Shown here piece after piece: positions 6,667-42,834 of a stretch of DNA of 42,834 nucleotides. Below the pieces are notes generated by a model. The model was not told the DNA's origin. It saw only the letters and a list, made by a program, of their open reading frames with translations, and ran no database searches. The position numbers and the translations under genes were made by a program. Source of the DNA: a virus; the IMG/VR virus record IMGVR_UViG_3300020548_000020, positions 1-42,834 of that record. The stretch is one strand, 5' to 3'. Positions within the stretch are counted from its first letter, which is position 1. Each line of letters opens with the position of its first letter.

Positions 6667-6926
6667 AATCTTTCTATACTGGATTCTTGTATAACCATCG
6701 CAAAGGCATCTTCTGCGTTTATTCCGTGATCCATGAACTCACACATGCTTTGCATTTTTCTATTCACGTCTTCTTCTAAAAAGAATTCTTTTAACCTATT
6801 TTTATATTGATCAAGGGAAGTTTTATTTTGGATCTGCTTTATACTTTGCCTACTGAAAAAACAAGATGCGGCGGCGACAGTCAATAAACCCAATATGAAT
6901 GGCTTCATATTACCATTCGTCTTCAT
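6663..6926 (-). CDS. Small membrane-anchored or lipoprotein-like protein
   Basis: 87 residues. The N-terminus has a basic start and one hydrophobic stretch (PFILGLLTVAAASCFF, ~8-23), followed by a hydrophilic helical tail. The AAAS-Cys sequence is a poor lipobox, so a signal anchor is as likely as a lipoprotein. The start at 6926 has a GGGAGA eight bases upstream, whereas the alternative Met7 at 6908 lacks a clear ribosome site, so I chose 6926. That gives a 17-base overlap with the upstream gene and a 4-base overlap with the GT2 gene. No family is recognised. Confidence 0.6.
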   Translation of the reverse strand: MKTNGNMKPFILGLLTVAAASCFFSRQSIKQIQNKTSLDQYKNRLKEFFLEEDVNRKMQSMCEFMDHGINAEDAFAMVIQESSIERF

Positions 6927-31484: not shown

Positions 31485-32735
31485 TTAGTCTAGCCAAATA
31501 GAATACTCTGAAGTTACTCCATTTTCTGGGTGCACAAACATTAAATGCTGACAAGGTCTGCTCATAGACGAGAAGTATTCTTGGGCATAAGTGTTATAGC
31601 TTTCTGGAGAACCAGAGATTCTTAACATGGAACTTCCTATCGTCATCTTAAATTGCTGATGATAATGGCCCATGAAAACATCATCAAAATGTTCAGGAAT
31701 TGCTCCATCTTTCCATCCCATTATTTTTTTATAGTAACCATGGAAAGCGTTTGGTGCAGGCATTTGATCGCCATGAATTAATAAGCTGCTGTAGTTGCCG
31801 ATTGTGTCAACGGCATACCAGTTTCTTTCTCCTACGCCATCTGGAATATTAAAGGTTACTCTTTCGTCGTCTCCAACAATCAACTCTATAATCTTATAGA
31901 GCATTCTATCCATGTTGGTTTCTGGATCGTGCTGCTTGCGTGCTCTTCCGCCTACTGCTCCATGGTTTCCTATCACGCCAGTAATGTGCACATGATTGAA
32001 GTTTTCCAATGCAGTCTTAACAAAGTTCCCAAGTATTCTTGGACCATTAACGGCAACTTGTCTGTACAGACCAGAGTCTATAAGGTGGCTTTGCCCAGGG
32101 AAAATCTCTTCACCTTCGACTATATCGCCCAACAACCAGATATGAAGATCATTTACTTCATGATCCATTCTTTGAATCTCTGTTATTTCTAACAGCTTTT
32201 CTGTGTATCTTTCTATTCTTTCTTCTAATACATTAGTATTATAATCAGGTGTTACCTTACCCATTTGCCAGTCTGCAAAGACTACTACTGCAGTTTCTGG
32301 AACTTTTTCTTTATTCTTTTTTAAAGAAGGAGCTTTAATTTCTGGGAACTCAAAGCCGGCAAAGGCATCGTAGGCTGCGGCATAGGCTGCTCTTACAACC
32401 TCGTCTTGTACGTTTTTAAGAGTCTCTACTCTCTTAGCCAATCTTCTATTTTCTGATCTTAGGAAGTCATTTCTTGAATCAGATATTTCTGACAAAAGAT
32501 CTTCTGACTCTTCCTCTTCTTCTTCGTCTACTATTTCTACAGCGGCTGACTGTACGTACATTGAATCTTTTTCATTAATATAATCAATAACTTCTTCTTG
32601 CGAGATTTCTTCTACAGAAGAAGACTCCCCCAAGACGTCGCCATGGCCTTCGCCAGTAAAAACCACATTTTTAGCTTGAGCTATATTTGGGGCGCGAACT
32701 ATATGCTTGTTTGTAACAACAAAAGTCTTTTTCAT
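31485..32735 (-). CDS. Calcineurin-like metallophosphoesterase with small N-terminal domain
   Basis: 416 residues. Domain order: a small domain (1-60) shared with the free-standing protein at 4346-4540, an acidic run (70-79, DEEEEEESED), a coiled coil (85-120) and then the phosphoesterase domain (~148-416). Metal-binding motifs: D155-W-Q157 (where DxH is usual), LLGD204, GVIGNH258, IHGD (321-323) and GHYH (356-359). Asp155, Asp204, Asn257, His258, His321, His357 and His359 provide a nearly full site; Gln157 replaces the first His, which is known to occur in some members. The family cleaves phosphomono- or diesters, including DNA ends and cyclic nucleotides. It sits between the J-like and giant tail genes, a surprising place for an enzyme. 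No signal peptide is seen. Confidence 0.85.
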   Translation of the reverse strand: MKKTFVVTNKHIVRAPNIAQAKNVVFTGEGHGDVLGESSSVEEISQEEVIDYINEKDSMYVQSAAVEIVDEEEEEESEDLLSEISDSRNDFLRSENRRLAKRVETLKNVQDEVVRAAYAAAYDAFAGFEFPEIKAPSLKKNKEKVPETAVVVFADWQMGKVTPDYNTNVLEERIERYTEKLLEITEIQRMDHEVNDLHIWLLGDIVEGEEIFPGQSHLIDSGLYRQVAVNGPRILGNFVKTALENFNHVHITGVIGNHGAVGGRARKQHDPETNMDRMLYKIIELIVGDDERVTFNIPDGVGERNWYAVDTIGNYSSLLIHGDQMPAPNAFHGYYKKIMGWKDGAIPEHFDDVFMGHYHQQFKMTIGSSMLRISGSPESYNTYAQEYFSSMSRPCQHLMFVHPENGVTSEYSIWLD

Positions 32736-32753: not shown

Positions 32754-33920
32754 TTAATAATTGTTAATGCCCATTATAACAGAATTAATAGAAACACTTC
32801 CAGCTACAGGGTATATTTTATCGCTAGATGGGGTAAAATCTTTTAGCGGTATTTCTTTTCCATCTGCATTAAACGAGTTTATCGTTACAGACCTTATGTA
32901 ATCTGAAGACAACTTAATTTGTCTTTCTATTTCAGATACAGATATAGTGGTTCCAACCGTAGATGAATTCAAGTATCTTCTCACAAATAACGCAGCTTGG
33001 TTTCTGATGCCGGCAGCAAGGCTTTCTGAAGCAGTTGATGAAACCATTATTGTAGCCATAACGTTTACAGAAATCTTCTCTGCCACTCTAACGTTAAACC
33101 TAACGCCAACTGGCTTAACGTTAATTATTGTGTTATAAACCATTTCTGGCATCATCTTTATTTCTGCTGTTGATTCAGGGACAATAATAACATCGCAAGA
33201 ACCCAGGCCATACGAAGACTCTCTCAGCCTAACATCCTTGACACCCTTTATGGATAGGGCTGCAAAACGCACTGCCTCAACCGTACCAGCCGTACGGGTC
33301 TTTAATGCGCCTATTATTCTTGTTCTATAGTTGTCGTCAGATTCTGAGTTAATAATGGCATAAACTTCTTTTGGGTTATTGCAATATACCACAACGCCAG
33401 GAGGGCTAATAAAATTATGTCTAGTCAAAGAACCTACTGGAGCAGTATATGTATTATCTGTGAAATCTGGTATAACTAAACCATAGGCCCTTGTTGTGCT
33501 CGCCCCTATGCTCACAGCACCATTGAGTTTAAACCTATACTGCTTTGTGCTAAAATTATCTACGTTAGTGTATATGATCGTTCCCTTAGGGATCACAATA
33601 TCTACGCTATACGGAGTCTGTATATAGAACTCTATATTATAAGACTGTCTTTCCGCCGCGGCATTGTCTGAAATGTCTTTTCTTCTAATATTATATAGGT
33701 CGCCAATCAGATCTAAGTTACGGCCAGAAGCAGTAGACAAACCCCCTTGTCTAAGGGTAAAAGAAAGCGAAGAATAAAGATCTGCTATTTCAGAACCCAT
33801 GGCTTCAGCGAATGCTCTGGCTACCGAACCAGGTTGTACAGCAGCAATACCGGCATTTTGTTGTAATGAATCTAAAATAGAATTAACTATTTGTGATTTA
33901 TCTTTTGTACCGTATATCAT
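32754..33920 (-). CDS. Baseplate J-like protein (gpJ/T4 gp6 family)
   Basis: 388 residues. The N-terminus (SILDSLQQNAGIAAVQPGSV, then ARAFAEAMGSEIADLYSSLS) and the following GRNLDLIGDLYNIRRK are classic Baseplate_J features. The central part includes PKGTIIYTN and a long beta domain. The C-terminal part carries TRIIGALKTRTAGTVEAVRF and IKGVKDVRLRES, the conserved 'gT..al...al.i.GV..v.v' helix-strand unit. This protein forms the baseplate wedge ring that joins hub to fibres and changes shape on contraction. It lies directly after the gp25-like gene, the usual order (gp25 then gpJ). Start at 33920 has GAGGAT upstream. Confidence 0.9.
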   Translation of the reverse strand: MIYGTKDKSQIVNSILDSLQQNAGIAAVQPGSVARAFAEAMGSEIADLYSSLSFTLRQGGLSTASGRNLDLIGDLYNIRRKDISDNAAAERQSYNIEFYIQTPYSVDIVIPKGTIIYTNVDNFSTKQYRFKLNGAVSIGASTTRAYGLVIPDFTDNTYTAPVGSLTRHNFISPPGVVVYCNNPKEVYAIINSESDDNYRTRIIGALKTRTAGTVEAVRFAALSIKGVKDVRLRESSYGLGSCDVIIVPESTAEIKMMPEMVYNTIINVKPVGVRFNVRVAEKISVNVMATIMVSSTASESLAAGIRNQAALFVRRYLNSSTVGTTISVSEIERQIKLSSDYIRSVTINSFNADGKEIPLKDFTPSSDKIYPVAGSVSINSVIMGINNY

Positions 33921-37479: not shown

Positions 37480-40400
37480 TTATTTACCCTTTGTTATCAT
37501 TTGTTCAGAACTAGTTATAACTGATTCGGACTCAGTTAATAAATCTTTTGTATAAACTGTTGTTCCGTAATTTCTGGTAATTAATTCCCAGTTAAGAGTT
37601 ACTGGAGTTCCATCTTCATAGTACTCATCCCATAGCATAATTGGCCATTTTGACGCATTGCCATAAAGTTCATACAGCTTAAGAACTTCTATCAAAGCAT
37701 AGAATGTTCTCACTCTTTCTTCGCCCCTTGGCTCACCCTCAGATAACATTTCTGTATAATCATTATTGTTCCAATCGAATCTATTGTTCAATTCATATGC
37801 AGTGCTAAATATGTATGGGAAATTAATATAGAATGGTTCTTTTGAATCAAAAAATTCATCTTTAAATTTAGCCCTAATTAGGTCAGAGTTAAAGTCGTAA
37901 TTTTTCATAAAAGTAAATACAGTATTTTTGTATTTCTCCATAGCTCCAGATGGCACGCTGTAGAAGACTGTTCCCAGAGTTCTTTGGTATCTTTCTTTCA
38001 AGAACTTAATTCTATTGTCATTACCATTTGGTTCAAAATCGTTTTCATTTTCAAATTTATTTGGAGCAGTTCTTGACTGTTTAATCCTGACAACAAATGT
38101 TTTATTCTCCAAAACAGTTTTTACAAATTCTGTTGCGACCATTCCCGGACTACCAAAGTCTTGAATTACTAAATCATTTTCAATAGGTTCAGAACTATAT
38201 TTTATTTGTTTTTCGTTATTCAAATCAAATATTAACTTGTTGTCTATTGGAGTTATAGTATTTTGTAAATTGCTATCATAATAATTTTGTACTGGGCCAT
38301 ATAAATCTATCGATGATTGATTTGGATTTAACTCATATGTTACGTAATTAACTATGTTTGAATTGAAATTTGGATCAACTACAACAGACGATAAGACATT
38401 AAATGTTCCATCGAATGGATAGCCTAAATTCCTTACTGTTATATTATCCCCAGAAGCAACTTGATTATTAATCATTCTAGCTGGAATTAAATTATTTTCT
38501 ATTGGCTTAGGAACAGGATATCCGAAAGAATCTTTTATTATTTCATCCTCGGAATCGTAATCGTAACCACCAGTAACTAATGTAGCGTAATATTTGCCAT
38601 TTATTAATCTTATATTTTTTCCTATTACATAACCATTCTTAGAGGTTTCTGTGAATCCTACTTGGACTTTTTCGGAAACGTTTATTCCATCTAAACGAAG
38701 TGTAAATTTAACATTAGGATTCAATACATCTTTAACATGTATTGTGTCGCCGTCAATTACACCCGAACCACCCAATCCAGTTCCCTTATCTAAGGTGCAC
38801 AAAACCTTAAAGAATGGTTCAAAACCAGTTTTATCTGGACCAAGACCAGCTAAGCCCAGGACTTGTGCGTGGACTAGTGCATTTTCATAGCTAGCGTATC
38901 TAACAAAATTTGCTGTTTCTCTTTCACTCCAACCAAGACTCTTCATCAAATCGTTGGTTCTAATATATTCGTAACCATCTGCTGAACGAGTTTTTGTTCT
39001 TACACCAAGTATTCCTGGCAGTAAGCTTATAGAGTGATACCTTCCCACGACCATGCCCTGGTTATAAGAAAGGCCAGCTTCCATTGGTTGGCCGTTTCTT
39101 GTTAGATACTGTACATAGCATCCGTGCTGATCTAACAAATTGTTTCTAACCCACTTCCAAGCCTTCCAGGCTAAAGGACCCAACAACATGCCAGCTGTAG
39201 CTATGATAGGGGCTGCACCAACTCCAGCAATTGTTCCAGCCGACACTGCTGCTGCGCCAGCTGCAACGCCATAACCAGCTGAACCGACAGCTACTGCCAA
39301 GCCAGCTGTTCCAGATATTACTCCAGCAATAGCTGCACCATCTACTTGACCATTGTTTCCATTCTTAGCCGCTTGTGCTTTTATTGATTCTGATAGACCA
39401 GAATTTGTAAAACCAGAAGCAGTGACGTTGGCCACAACGTCTTTTATCAAAGCTGAAGATCCACCAGTAAATTGCATGCCGCCTATTAATTGTGGAGTTA
39501 ACGAATTGCCTAGAGCGTCTAAAGATATTTCTCCGCCCATAGTTATACCAGTATTGCCAGCTCTTAATGAATCTAGATATATTCTAGTATCATTTCTTAC
39601 TGTTTGGACATTCATCCAAGAATGCAACCAGGAAGTCATAAACCATCTTGCTGGGTCATTAACAGTTACTAGGGCGTTTGGGGTTATCGAAGTTACAAAA
39701 CCAAGCTCTGAAGTAAAGTGATGTACGACTTGTTCTACTTCAAACATACCGTACATTCTTTCATATATATCAGCAAGGTAAACCAAGTCATGAGGTCTTA
39801 TGTCTGCGTTACCTAATATAATTATTTCTCCGCTGTATATATCTTTTACGGATTCTCTTAGGTGACTGAGCGCAACTCTTTTCGCACTTAACTCATCTGG
39901 TGCTCCAGTTACGTTTTTAGATATTCCTCTTCCAGTTTCAAAAGGATGCAACAACGGGTGTAAGAACCCAAAAAATCCACTACCAACTACGTTGTCGAAA
40001 TAGATACCAGTCTCTACAGTATTCTCAACTTGCCTATCAGCTGGCGCACCCTTATCTAAAGATACAGTTACTGGGTACTTGCCATCGGATACCGCTGTTA
40101 TTGTCGTGGCAACTCCAGAATTTTCTTGGATTTGATTTGATAATATATGAGAGAAAGAACTTAGATAATGTATTCTTTGGAATGGCTCTCTAATTTCTAC
40201 TACCGGTTCTGCGTATTCTCTTGTAAACGGATTATCTACAGCCCTTAACAAAGAACCTGGTCTTCCCAACTGATAATATATAGAATCGTTTAAAGCTTTA
40301 TTCAGAATATTTGCCTGTCTTGCAAGCACTGTACTCTGAGAAAGCCCATAGCCAGTTTGAAGCATGTTGAGTCTGAACACGTTGAACAACGCAGATAAGC

Positions 40401-42834
40401 TGTCGGTGACAGCATTAAATATCTGACCAATACTCTTATCATAAAAATCGCCTAAACTACTTAAAGTTCTACTTGCTAAGTTAGTTGTACTATTTCCCTC
40501 ACTCTTGTTCTTAAAAAGAAGTTGAAGGAATTTAGTTTTATCTTTAGCGTACGTGTTCCCTGGAAAAATAAAAGCTTGGAATATTTTATCAACAGGTTTG
40601 AATGACCAGGTTTCATCTGTAGGAGAATTGCCATAATTTATTCTTCTATCTGGCTTAAGAACCAACCAAGCTCTTGCGTAGGCGTCGTTCCACATAGCCT
40701 GTCTGAATAGACCAACAAGATAATAGAATAAATCTTGAGGGTTTCTTATTACAGAACCTAGGTCTGCTTCAGTTAACGTTTCGCCATATATATTGCCCAT
40801 TTGGACTGGATCAAATAAGTTTGATTTTAAAAGTGCTATTTTTTCTATGCTAAGTGCATTAAAATATTCTATTAAACCACCATCAGCTATAGGTGCATCT
40901 ATGAAATTTTTTCTCGCAAACTCTATTGCATCTGCCTGGGATGAAGTCGGCTTATCCCCAAACAATAAACTAAATTCATCTAAAGCGCTGTTGCCCGTAA
41001 CATTAAATTTGTTATAAGTTCCAAAATTATCTGGCAGTTGCTTGCCACTAAAAATCTTTTGTATTTCGCCAGTGAATGGAGTCGTATCATCCCAATTCAT
41101 TAAATATGTTTCTTCAAAAATGATTTTAACTGATTCGTATGTATGATAACCATAGCGGAACTGGTCCCATATTTGCTGAGCTTGAGCTAAAGTTCTTCCG
41201 TTTCCAGCTATAACTGTTGTGTTCAAATCATAATCTTCATCGTAGAATTTTCTTGACTCAATTGAAGTACTATCTTGAAGAGAATAAACTGATGGGAACT
41301 GTATTCTTCCAGAAGAGCTATAATCTTTATCTGATTTTTCGCTTTTAAGAATATTTATTCCATACAGTAAATCATTTAAATTTCCTCTACTTGCATCATC
41401 AACTGGTTTTCTTATCAGGTCATAATAGCTTTTAAAATTTCCACCGCGTGCATAATTAGCGTCACCTGTATCAGCTGCATTTTCTGGAACATACTGTCTA
41501 ATTGCTTCTAGGTTTGGATTTTTTAAGATAGCGTACAAGTCTCCACCATTTGTCCCCGCTGTCCAAGGACCAAACCCAATTACAACTGAATCCTCTGTAG
41601 GCGCCTCAGTTGGACCAGGGTTAAATGGTTCAAGCCCAGGTCCATTATTATTGGATTTTTTAATTTTGAAATTTTTAATTGGCACTACAGAACTAAAGGC
41701 TACACCAAGTGGGACTGTATTCGGAACAAATGCAAAATAACATTCTTCTATATCTGGTACCGGTGCGTATCCCTTATCTTCGTATCTCCATGCATCTTTG
41801 CCTGGTTCATCTCTTTTAACAGAAAGTTTATTAACAGTTAAAACGTCCAAATAATAAGCTGCGTCTGGAGAAACTACGGCATCTATTTCTGTTTGCTCTA
41901 GATTAATTGCATCGCTTCCATTAGCATTTGCAAGTTTAATATCTACTGTTTCGTTTTTTCCCCAAAGAAAGTAGGCTGGTTTACAAACTACGGCTGCACC
42001 TTGTCCGTTATTAGCGGAAGGGTTATACACAAGTACGTGCATATTTTGATAGTCTTTAGCTTCACCATACAAAGATGCGCTGTCATTATCAAAATACCAT
42101 TTTTTAAATTTCTTAACCAAATTTTCATCTGACACTGCAACGTTGTAAGGCCATCTCATGGCTATATAGAATTGTTCTTCTAGACTTGTTTTTGGTGGTT
42201 CCCACTCGTTGTAGGAGAACGGCCTACTCCCATTTAACTCTGGGCTAAGTTCCAATATATCTGATGAATTTTGATTGTTTAAAGTTGGCTCAGGAAAAGG
42301 CATGGTTATTGATAGTGACTGTTGGTTTGCAATTGTCTCCGGGATAAAACCATTCAAAGAAAAATCAATAGGATTATTTAATATCTCTACAATCTGAGAA
42401 CCAGAAAGACCTTTTTCTGTTTGATAGTCTATGTCATATATTAAAAAATCTTTAAATTCTTGTCCATATATATTATCAACCCTATTCAGAATAAATGATT
42501 CACCACCAGAAGTATTCTGTCCAGTGCTTGTATTGCCCGCTCCGGTCTTAGCGATATCGTACTGGAAAGCATAGGTATCTAAAGTTTTATCGTCATTGTT
42601 TCTTGCAGTAAAGAACGGATACCTAAATCTACTTGGGAGTTGTTGAATCTGCGCGTGTGAGGAACCAGTTAAATCAGTTACGATCTCGACATTATTGCCC
42701 ACAGGTAAGTGAAATCCTATTGTTACTTTTCCTTTTGATGTAGGAAGTTTTGCAATTATATTTCCTTTTGCGTCTGCTATTTCTTGAAAATCTTTATCAT
42801 TAAAATTAATTAATATTCCTTGTTCCCTCAAATA
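37480..42834 (-). CDS. Giant baseplate hub protein with hydrophobic and split SNase-like domains (5' end cut)
   Basis: 1784 residues visible and open at the window edge. The first possible start is a TTG at 42831 without a visible ribosome site, so the true start may lie beyond. Residues ~880-1060 resemble the gp27/late-control-gene-D hub pattern: SGEIIILGNADIRPHDLVYL, then MYGMFEVEQVVHHFTSELGF and VTSITPNALVTVND. Residues ~1163-1225 are a Gly/Ala-rich hydrophobic stretch (AGLAVAVGSAGYGVAAGAAA and more) ending in WKAWKWVRNNLLDQ. Residues ~1355-1640 contain an SNase-like domain in two parts. The first is VIDGDTIHV with Asp1360 and Asp1362 and RLDGINVSE with Arg1379 and Glu1387. The second begins at SPGMVATEFVKTVLENKTFV (1561 on), with Arg1617 in RYQRTLGTVFY. 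About 165 residues are inserted between them. Function: tail hub for certain by context, nuclease activity possible. Confidence 0.7.
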   Translation of the reverse strand, partial: YLREQGILINFNDKDFQEIADAKGNIIAKLPTSKGKVTIGFHLPVGNNVEIVTDLTGSSHAQIQQLPSRFRYPFFTARNNDDKTLDTYAFQYDIAKTGAGNTSTGQNTSGGESFILNRVDNIYGQEFKDFLIYDIDYQTEKGLSGSQIVEILNNPIDFSLNGFIPETIANQQSLSITMPFPEPTLNNQNSSDILELSPELNGSRPFSYNEWEPPKTSLEEQFYIAMRWPYNVAVSDENLVKKFKKWYFDNDSASLYGEAKDYQNMHVLVYNPSANNGQGAAVVCKPAYFLWGKNETVDIKLANANGSDAINLEQTEIDAVVSPDAAYYLDVLTVNKLSVKRDEPGKDAWRYEDKGYAPVPDIEECYFAFVPNTVPLGVAFSSVVPIKNFKIKKSNNNGPGLEPFNPGPTEAPTEDSVVIGFGPWTAGTNGGDLYAILKNPNLEAIRQYVPENAADTGDANYARGGNFKSYYDLIRKPVDDASRGNLNDLLYGINILKSEKSDKDYSSSGRIQFPSVYSLQDSTSIESRKFYDEDYDLNTTVIAGNGRTLAQAQQIWDQFRYGYHTYESVKIIFEETYLMNWDDTTPFTGEIQKIFSGKQLPDNFGTYNKFNVTGNSALDEFSLLFGDKPTSSQADAIEFARKNFIDAPIADGGLIEYFNALSIEKIALLKSNLFDPVQMGNIYGETLTEADLGSVIRNPQDLFYYLVGLFRQAMWNDAYARAWLVLKPDRRINYGNSPTDETWSFKPVDKIFQAFIFPGNTYAKDKTKFLQLLFKNKSEGNSTTNLASRTLSSLGDFYDKSIGQIFNAVTDSLSALFNVFRLNMLQTGYGLSQSTVLARQANILNKALNDSIYYQLGRPGSLLRAVDNPFTREYAEPVVEIREPFQRIHYLSSFSHILSNQIQENSGVATTITAVSDGKYPVTVSLDKGAPADRQVENTVETGIYFDNVVGSGFFGFLHPLLHPFETGRGISKNVTGAPDELSAKRVALSHLRESVKDIYSGEIIILGNADIRPHDLVYLADIYERMYGMFEVEQVVHHFTSELGFVTSITPNALVTVNDPARWFMTSWLHSWMNVQTVRNDTRIYLDSLRAGNTGITMGGEISLDALGNSLTPQLIGGMQFTGGSSALIKDVVANVTASGFTNSGLSESIKAQAAKNGNNGQVDGAAIAGVISGTAGLAVAVGSAGYGVAAGAAAVSAGTIAGVGAAPIIATAGMLLGPLAWKAWKWVRNNLLDQHGCYVQYLTRNGQPMEAGLSYNQGMVVGRYHSISLLPGILGVRTKTRSADGYEYIRTNDLMKSLGWSERETANFVRYASYENALVHAQVLGLAGLGPDKTGFEPFFKVLCTLDKGTGLGGSGVIDGDTIHVKDVLNPNVKFTLRLDGINVSEKVQVGFTETSKNGYVIGKNIRLINGKYYATLVTGGYDYDSEDEIIKDSFGYPVPKPIENNLIPARMINNQVASGDNITVRNLGYPFDGTFNVLSSVVVDPNFNSNIVNYVTYELNPNQSSIDLYGPVQNYYDSNLQNTITPIDNKLIFDLNNEKQIKYSSEPIENDLVIQDFGSPGMVATEFVKTVLENKTFVVRIKQSRTAPNKFENENDFEPNGNDNRIKFLKERYQRTLGTVFYSVPSGAMEKYKNTVFTFMKNYDFNSDLIRAKFKDEFFDSKEPFYINFPYIFSTAYELNNRFDWNNNDYTEMLSEGEPRGEERVRTFYALIEVLKLYELYGNASKWPIMLWDEYYEDGTPVTLNWELITRNYGTTVYTKDLLTESESVITSSEQMITKGK

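Follow-up and report, generated by a model that had tools for sequence, protein, structure and literature searches.

Hub Proteins Carrying Terminal Enzymes

The closest described relatives of the protein studied here are gp27-like baseplate hubs of a large myovirus lineage that includes Bacillus thuringiensis phage 0305phi8-36. The parts of the published account drawn on here describe exchangeable terminal enzymes on these hubs, assign to the BtI1 hub (RBTH_07687, a homologue of gp147 of 0305phi8-36) an N-terminal domain related to staphylococcal nuclease (SNase) whose utility is called "obscure," and propose that the hub SNase was transferred from stand-alone genes (Hardies et al., 2007; PMC2147016). 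An earlier note on the present DNA, which had described a baseplate hub with an SNase domain interrupted by an insertion, knew of no described phage case; the BtI1 hub supplies one. SNase-hub fusion is known in the lineage, and what is new in the window (the whole 42,834-base virus record, IMGVR_UViG_3300020548_000020) is the C-terminal placement and the insertions. The BtI1 SNase is N-terminal, with no insertions described in the parts of the paper used, whereas the window SNase is C-terminal and lies in three pieces; as far as the same account goes, the two are alike in that terminal enzyme domains are exchanged and the hub core is conserved. Among the matches listed, we recognized no further report of a hub SNase beyond Hardies et al. 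(2007), subscription journals lying mostly outside the scope.

Hubs with an N-terminal SNase recur in the isolated Bacillus phage vB_BauM_KLEB27-3 (KLEB27-3; phrog_452, E 1.8e-9) and in two plasmids with phage genes, pAD3 (1.8e-6) and pN497-ZHONG (0.0016). All three hubs end about 60 residues past an AGIN[GN]HxGxV motif, without a long C-terminal extension. Equivalents of R35, E43, and R87 of staphylococcal nuclease can be read by eye in the KLEB27-3 and pAD3 hub SNases, as in the window. The N-terminal parts of the three proteins gave no Pfam SNase match at E ≤ 0.01, and phmmer found no PDB match for the pAD3 N-terminal region (187 residues) at the same threshold. A further hub-SNase fusion, with the SNase internal, is suggested by phrog_8809, a profile of 2317 positions matched both by hub residues 991–1070 (4.5e-10) and by the stand-alone SNase L126 (4.2e-12), its SNase part (profile 1099–1206) lying upstream of its hub part (1894–1969). 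A Rhizobium phage match (H74) was rejected as a hub fusion; it overlaps no annotated gene and falls in a region rich in tRNAs.

Separate SNase genes that exceed the Pfam cut-off are present in 13 of the 15 IMG/VR records searched and in both plasmids, and are absent from KLEB27-3; their presence in these phages is consistent with the transfer from stand-alone genes proposed in 2007. Unlike the window hub, these stand-alone phage SNases (phrog_452, PF00565) are separate genes of about 135 residues without large insertions. They have the same catalytic residues, and 9 of the 10 aligned have Asn at the D40 position (alignment A3, 10 of 12 loci; the omitted L125 and L127 both have Asn). Staphylococcal nuclease and EcnA, which are secreted, likewise share the fold and R35, E43, and R87 with the hub SNase, but are single small enzymes without insertions, and staphylococcal nuclease has Asp at position 40 where the window has Asn. 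The separate genes of about 135 residues, mostly with Asn at D40, were observed at L122 (pAD3) and L123–L133 (G001–G006, G008, G010, and G012–G014).

A Very Large Hub Gene at the End of the Window

The last ORF of the window is open at the window end, and its product, P0001, covers the last 1784 residues of a gp27-like baseplate hub; the 5′ end of the gene lies outside the window. Residue numbers here are those of P0001, the truncated ORF, and run one higher than those of the earlier note. In L004, a relative that is 100% identical over P0001, the ORF measures 3695 codons from stop to stop, and P0001 starts at codon 1912. The hub ORF and the features that precede the nuclease are:

37480..42834, minus strand: C-terminal 1784 residues of the hub ORF (P0001), from the ORF list and the L004 comparison
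39346..40200, minus strand: hub homology region, P0001 879–1163, from tblastn and BLAST of full-length L004
39178..39339, minus strand: Gly/Ala-rich hydrophobic stretch, P0001 1166–1219, from hydropathy
38839..39132, minus strand: linker module DQHG...AGLxxxQGMVVG, P0001 1235–1332, from alignment and BLAST

By tblastn, P0001 879–1163 matches the putative baseplate protein of Bacillus phage KLEB27-3 (28.6% identity, E 3e-18), 883–1095 a Moorella phage MTATph1 protein annotated as an endolysin (4e-18), and 829–1079 the ME3 baseplate hub protein (3e-7), which has been noted as homologous to the 0305phi8-36 hub. BLAST of full-length L004 against seven hubs gave E values of 6e-13 to 3e-25 for the piece over P0001 879–1163. 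The alignments with KLEB27-3, the Moorella phage, and four Bacillus, Cytobacillus, and Paenibacillus plasmid hubs are piecewise and end at about P0001 1264–1289, so that homology with six of the seven other hubs extends into the linker, and the ME3 hub aligns in two pieces ending at P0001 1078. Homology to annotated hubs of the 0305phi8-36 gp147-type lineage is thus present by both methods, and the gp27-like assignment rests on it together with the parts of PMC2147016 used here. PHROGs labels the hub region "endolysin" (phrog_20474, 8.5e-24), a label that probably derives from such multi-domain hubs. A baseplate wedge gene lies at 32754–33920 (phrog_6, 3.9e-35). We regard the fusion of the nuclease domain to a hub as highly probable. 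The N-terminal 1911–2000 residues of five relatives contain no confident Pfam domain (best 0.023, below the cut-off), and no hub-SNase relative was found in the genome contigs scanned for a host.

Two further features of the region were observed. A phage exonuclease gene (31485–32735; phrog_284, 1.9e-46) adjoins the wedge gene, among the tail genes. In some relatives the hub gene is divided into two ORFs, with three break sites among different relatives, near P0001 441–464, 294–306, and 905–907 (L021/L022/L032, L024/L025/L027/L030, and L034/L036).

The C-terminal slot after the hub core is exchangeable, and related hubs carry peptidoglycan hydrolases there: a glucosaminidase in L120 (Pfam 3.1e-14, over the cut-off) and a VanY-like stretch in L040 (Pfam 0.0026, below the cut-off). 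Such hub-borne cell-wall hydrolases in the same slot are a closer comparison in these data than the type VI secretion effectors to which the earlier note had likened the arrangement. Between hub core and nuclease, the 12 windows of highest hydropathy in P0001 all fall within residues 1166–1219 (maximum 1.72). Windows of at least 1.6 occur within 120 residues upstream of DQHG in 48 of the 70 family sequences defined below, the remaining 22 reaching 1.34–1.58. By its hydropathy the stretch is a borderline candidate for a membrane segment, possibly one that contacts the membrane.

A Staphylococcal Nuclease Fold in Three Pieces

The nuclease occupies the C-terminal part of P0001 as three pieces separated by two insertions, placed by alignment and model matching:

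38671..38814, minus strand: SNase piece 1, P0001 1341–1388
38137..38670, minus strand: insertion 1, P0001 1389–1566, located in the loop that follows E43 (178 residues; 14 in the nuclease)
37960..38136, minus strand: SNase piece 2, P0001 1567–1625, with helix 1, strand 4, an enlarged loop, and strand 5 with R87 (1618)
37597..37959, minus strand: insertion 2, P0001 1626–1746
37531..37596, minus strand: SNase piece 3, P0001 1747–1768, with LNWELITRNYGTTVY, the equivalent of the VNEALVRQGLA helix

SNases use R35, E43, and R87 in catalysis and bind calcium through D21 and D40. Residue equivalences to staphylococcal nuclease, taken from sequence alignment, place D19 and D21 at 1361 and 1363, R35 at 1380, the D40 position at Asn1385, and E43 at 1388. 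The motifs VIDGDT (from 1359), RLDGINVSE (1380–1388), ATEFVKTV(LE) (from 1567), QRTLGTVFY (1617–1625), and LNWELITRNYG (from 1747) mark the pieces along P0001. The 8-residue spacing from Arg to Glu that first drew attention to the domain is correct (R1380, E1388). The accompanying statement that all key residues are kept holds for R35, E43, and R87 (R1380, E1388, and R1618) and fails at D40. At the calcium site, D21 is kept in all 70 family sequences, and Asn replaces D40 in the window and in 49 of the 70; because the same Asn is found in 9 of the 10 aligned stand-alone SNases, Asp at position 40 is no strict feature of SNase membership.

Family models do not recognize the window's own sequence: P0001 has no Pfam match at E ≤ 10, and the isolated domain has no PHROGs or NCBIfam match at E ≤ 0.1. 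The case for an SNase therefore rests on relatives and on models. Among eight family members including the window, all matched phrog_452 (endonuclease) at E ≤ 10 (best 9.3e-7), seven matched EcnA (best 7.5e-7), three matched NucI (best 1.2e-4), and one matched the Pfam SNase family PF00565 (0.042, below the cut-off), which probably misses the hub SNase because the insertions break the profile. Scored against a profile of 10 stand-alone SNases, 62 of 71 rows (the window plus 70 family sequences, one of them identical to the window's) exceeded the 99th percentile of residue shuffles and 26 exceeded every shuffle; the window itself scored 4.5 bits, against 3.5 at the 99th percentile and 10.2 for the top shuffle, the percentile being taken over 931 scored shuffles (489 of 1420 yielded no score). 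Positions 104–122 of this profile align weakly to piece 3 and follow the match to piece 1 in the right order. When hub and stand-alone SNases were compared profile to profile, piece 1 alone aligned, over 34 and 36 columns at probabilities of 83 and 88, and the profile of alignment A1 found no SNase among PDB sequences. The hub domain is best described as a divergent SNase homologue rather than a Pfam-grade member.

AlphaFold2 models were built from 26 and from 67 aligned family members, with a modest mean pLDDT of 59.6 and 67.0; within the SNase core, ten-residue blocks mostly reach 73–88, falling to 48–69 at piece edges. VIA-align was used to re-align the models to Foldseek's own top 1000 chains, and staphylococcal nuclease ranked first for both: for the first model with Z 11.8 over 110 residues at rmsd 3.6 (model 106–532 against nuclease 6–123), and for the second with Z 12.3 over 123 residues at rmsd 4.5. 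SND1 and Tudor-type SN domains followed for the first model (Z 9–12), with unrelated OB folds (RPA, SSB) below 5. For the second model every row listed is an SNase or SND1, and 42 of the 50 listed rows align 102–106 residues at rmsd 2.3–2.7. With Foldseek by itself, neither model found a PDB match at E ≤ 0.001, and the single BFVD match at that threshold is an uncultured phage "Baseplate hub protein" (3.3e-21). In both modest-confidence models the three pieces rebuild, across both insertions, one SNase OB fold with its helices, as the check proposed in the earlier note had envisaged. From sequence and models together, we consider homology to SNases close to certain. The initial observation, that a baseplate hub carries an SNase fold interrupted by a beta-rich segment, is borne out by hub homology, the models, and the structure matches, and is confirmed as real and larger than first reported.

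Insertions into the Nuclease

The distances E43–A58, A58–R87, and Y93–N100 are 178, 51, and 122 residues in the window alignment, compared with 14, 29, and 6 in staphylococcal nuclease, and so reveal two large insertions (about +164 and +116) and one enlarged loop (+22). The first of these agrees with the insertion of about 165 residues originally noticed; the 22 residues added between helix 1 and R87, and insertion 2, which precedes LNWELITRNYG and is near-universal in the family, had been missed. In the AlphaFold2 model insertion 1 is beta-rich and insertion 2 mostly helical. Pfam searches gave sub-threshold matches for insertion 1, with no family over the cut-off, and no match for insertion 2 (searched as window 37600–37962); by eye, insertion 1 resembles a phage-tail beta domain (GDxVxI...NGTYxV).

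The stretch from E43 to the helix measures 22–40 residues in 45 of the 70 sequences, 107–135 in 13, 172–178 in 9, and 222–226 in 3. A long insertion 1 is therefore present in 25 of 70, by three parsimony changes on the tree, and the insertions of different clades align weakly with one another. Insertion 2 is 116–146 residues long in 66 of the 67 wholly readable sequences. In the divergent L031 it spans 44 residues, and there the distance from the helix to R87 (30) is likewise close to the nuclease value. Many of the structure matches of the second model are "Delta+PHS" nuclease variants, which lack part of the insertion-1 loop, so the loop after E43 tolerates change. The family clearly illustrates how large insertions can be tolerated at a single active-site loop of an enzyme. 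Compared with L028, L016, L017, and L019 have about 100 further residues nested inside the loop insertion; the 225-residue insertion of L017 resembles the 125-residue one of L028 with such a nested segment.

Conservation and Selection Across the Family

One IMG/VR scan listed 36 loci, and a second the best 80 of 166 stretches passing tblastn with the linker-plus-SNase alignment as query; the contigs are partly shared. From the 116 ORFs matching the family profile came 70 distinct C-terminal sequences, of which one equals that of the window; the set excludes three ORFs that lack DQHG (second halves in L051–L053). Alignment A2 was drawn from 28 distinct rows and contains 26 of them (a row identical and a row near-identical to the window omitted), A4 14 of the 70, and A5 the window plus 66 of the 70 (L051, L053, L055, and the window-identical row omitted).

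D19, D21, and R35 are invariant in all 70. The E43 position is Glu in 58, Ser in 9, and Lys in 3; the R87 position is Arg in 56 and Lys in 12, with 2 unreadable; and the D40 position is Asn in 49, Ile in 12, Asp in 6, Gln in 2, and Ala in 1. The homologue conservation on which the earlier note would have staked its claim thus largely stands, for D19, D21, and R35 throughout and for E43 and R87 outside a clade of 12. The 12 sequences without E43 (L081, L092, L094, L095, L098, L102, L103, L106, L110, L111, L112, and L117) are the same 12 that have R87K, D40I, and T22E, and they form one clade with an SH-aLRT of 100 in a quick tree of the hub region without the SNase. On this tree the loss of E43 requires one change and D40 eight. 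The core has dN/dS values, rough because dS is often >1, of 0.035–0.136 in the 11 pairs, out of 12, that allowed an estimate of dS, and long insertion 1 of 0.066–0.252 in the six pairs that have it; within the E43-less clade the core gives 0.054–0.086 in the 3 pairs, out of 4, with estimable dS.

These patterns bear on whether the domain is an enzyme at all. It might instead be a structural or nucleic-acid-binding module of the hub, such as a DNA guide at the tail exit or a part of spike packing, in which catalysis is gone or irrelevant. The clade lacking E43 and R87 keeps D19, D21, and R35 under purifying selection, so a role of the domain independent of catalysis exists; Asn at D40 in 49 of 70 and the general abundance of OB folds in hub spikes point the same way. 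Against this, E43 is present in all the other 58 sequences and R87 in all 56 that are readable outside the clade, and the tree needs one change to explain the loss. Conservation of E43 and R87 together with purifying selection suggests that catalysis is probably maintained by selection in most family members, and we think a purely structural module fairly unlikely, though the strongest of the alternatives.

A Proposed Role at Host Entry

Building on the hub homology, SNase fold, residue conservation, purifying selection, and exchangeable slot obtained from sequence and models, we propose that a phage SNase of the stand-alone type was fused to the C terminus of a very large gp27-like hub, at the slot that holds peptidoglycan hydrolases in related hubs, and that in the window, as in most of the lineage, it probably works as a nuclease. 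The tail tip would present the nuclease at entry, where its substrate may be nucleic acid located at the host envelope or immediately within it. Both insertions would be surface loops that have grown into domains; since insertion 1 emerges from the loop beside the catalytic Glu, it may help to shield the active site or to aim it. On balance we favor this reading as a whole, that of an exchangeable hub-borne entry enzyme, active in most members and in the window. Catalysis in the window's phage is predicted as rather likely, and use at host entry is put forward tentatively. A free nuclease beside the DNA exit would presumably endanger the phage's own genome, which speaks against the proposal. 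The Asn at D40, the modest confidence of the models, the null family-model searches with the window's own sequence, the null Foldseek PDB searches, the profile-profile alignment limited to piece 1, and the clade lacking E43 and R87 count on the same side.

In a more elaborate account, which we consider improbable, the SNase would be delivered at injection and cut host or competitor nucleic acid, the hydrophobic stretch touching or crossing the cytoplasmic membrane, and a lid formed by the loop insertion would protect the phage's own genome. Highly doubtful is the idea that the nuclease goes unused on the virion hub, its C-terminal module being produced or set free as a protein of its own. The hub of L034 and L036 is split so that the SNase has its own 739-codon ORF, and other relatives are split elsewhere, but that ORF retains hub homology alongside the SNase, and in the window and most relatives examined for splits the nuclease and hub form one continuous ORF. 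Chance OB-fold or motif resemblance without SNase homology, for which the null single-sequence family searches, the window score below the top shuffle, and the A1 profile without an SNase among PDB sequences could be cited, is close to negligible given the matches of relatives to EcnA (7.5e-7) and phrog_452 (9.3e-7), the 62 of 71 rows that outscore the shuffles' 99th percentile, and the ranking of SNase and Tudor-SN kin over other OB folds.

With this family, the 2007 remark on one hub SNase of "obscure" utility becomes a recurrent and conserved arrangement. As a natural set, the family includes hub SNases presumed to be active and others presumed inactive, and the role of a nuclease on a phage tail tip becomes directly testable.

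One additional observation concerns L051/L052 and L053, in which the SNase lies in two overlapping ORFs related by a +1 frame change at locus position ~6870–6910, in the strand 4–5 loop. The frame change is common to divergent contigs and may represent a programmed frameshift, a two-chain nuclease, or decay.
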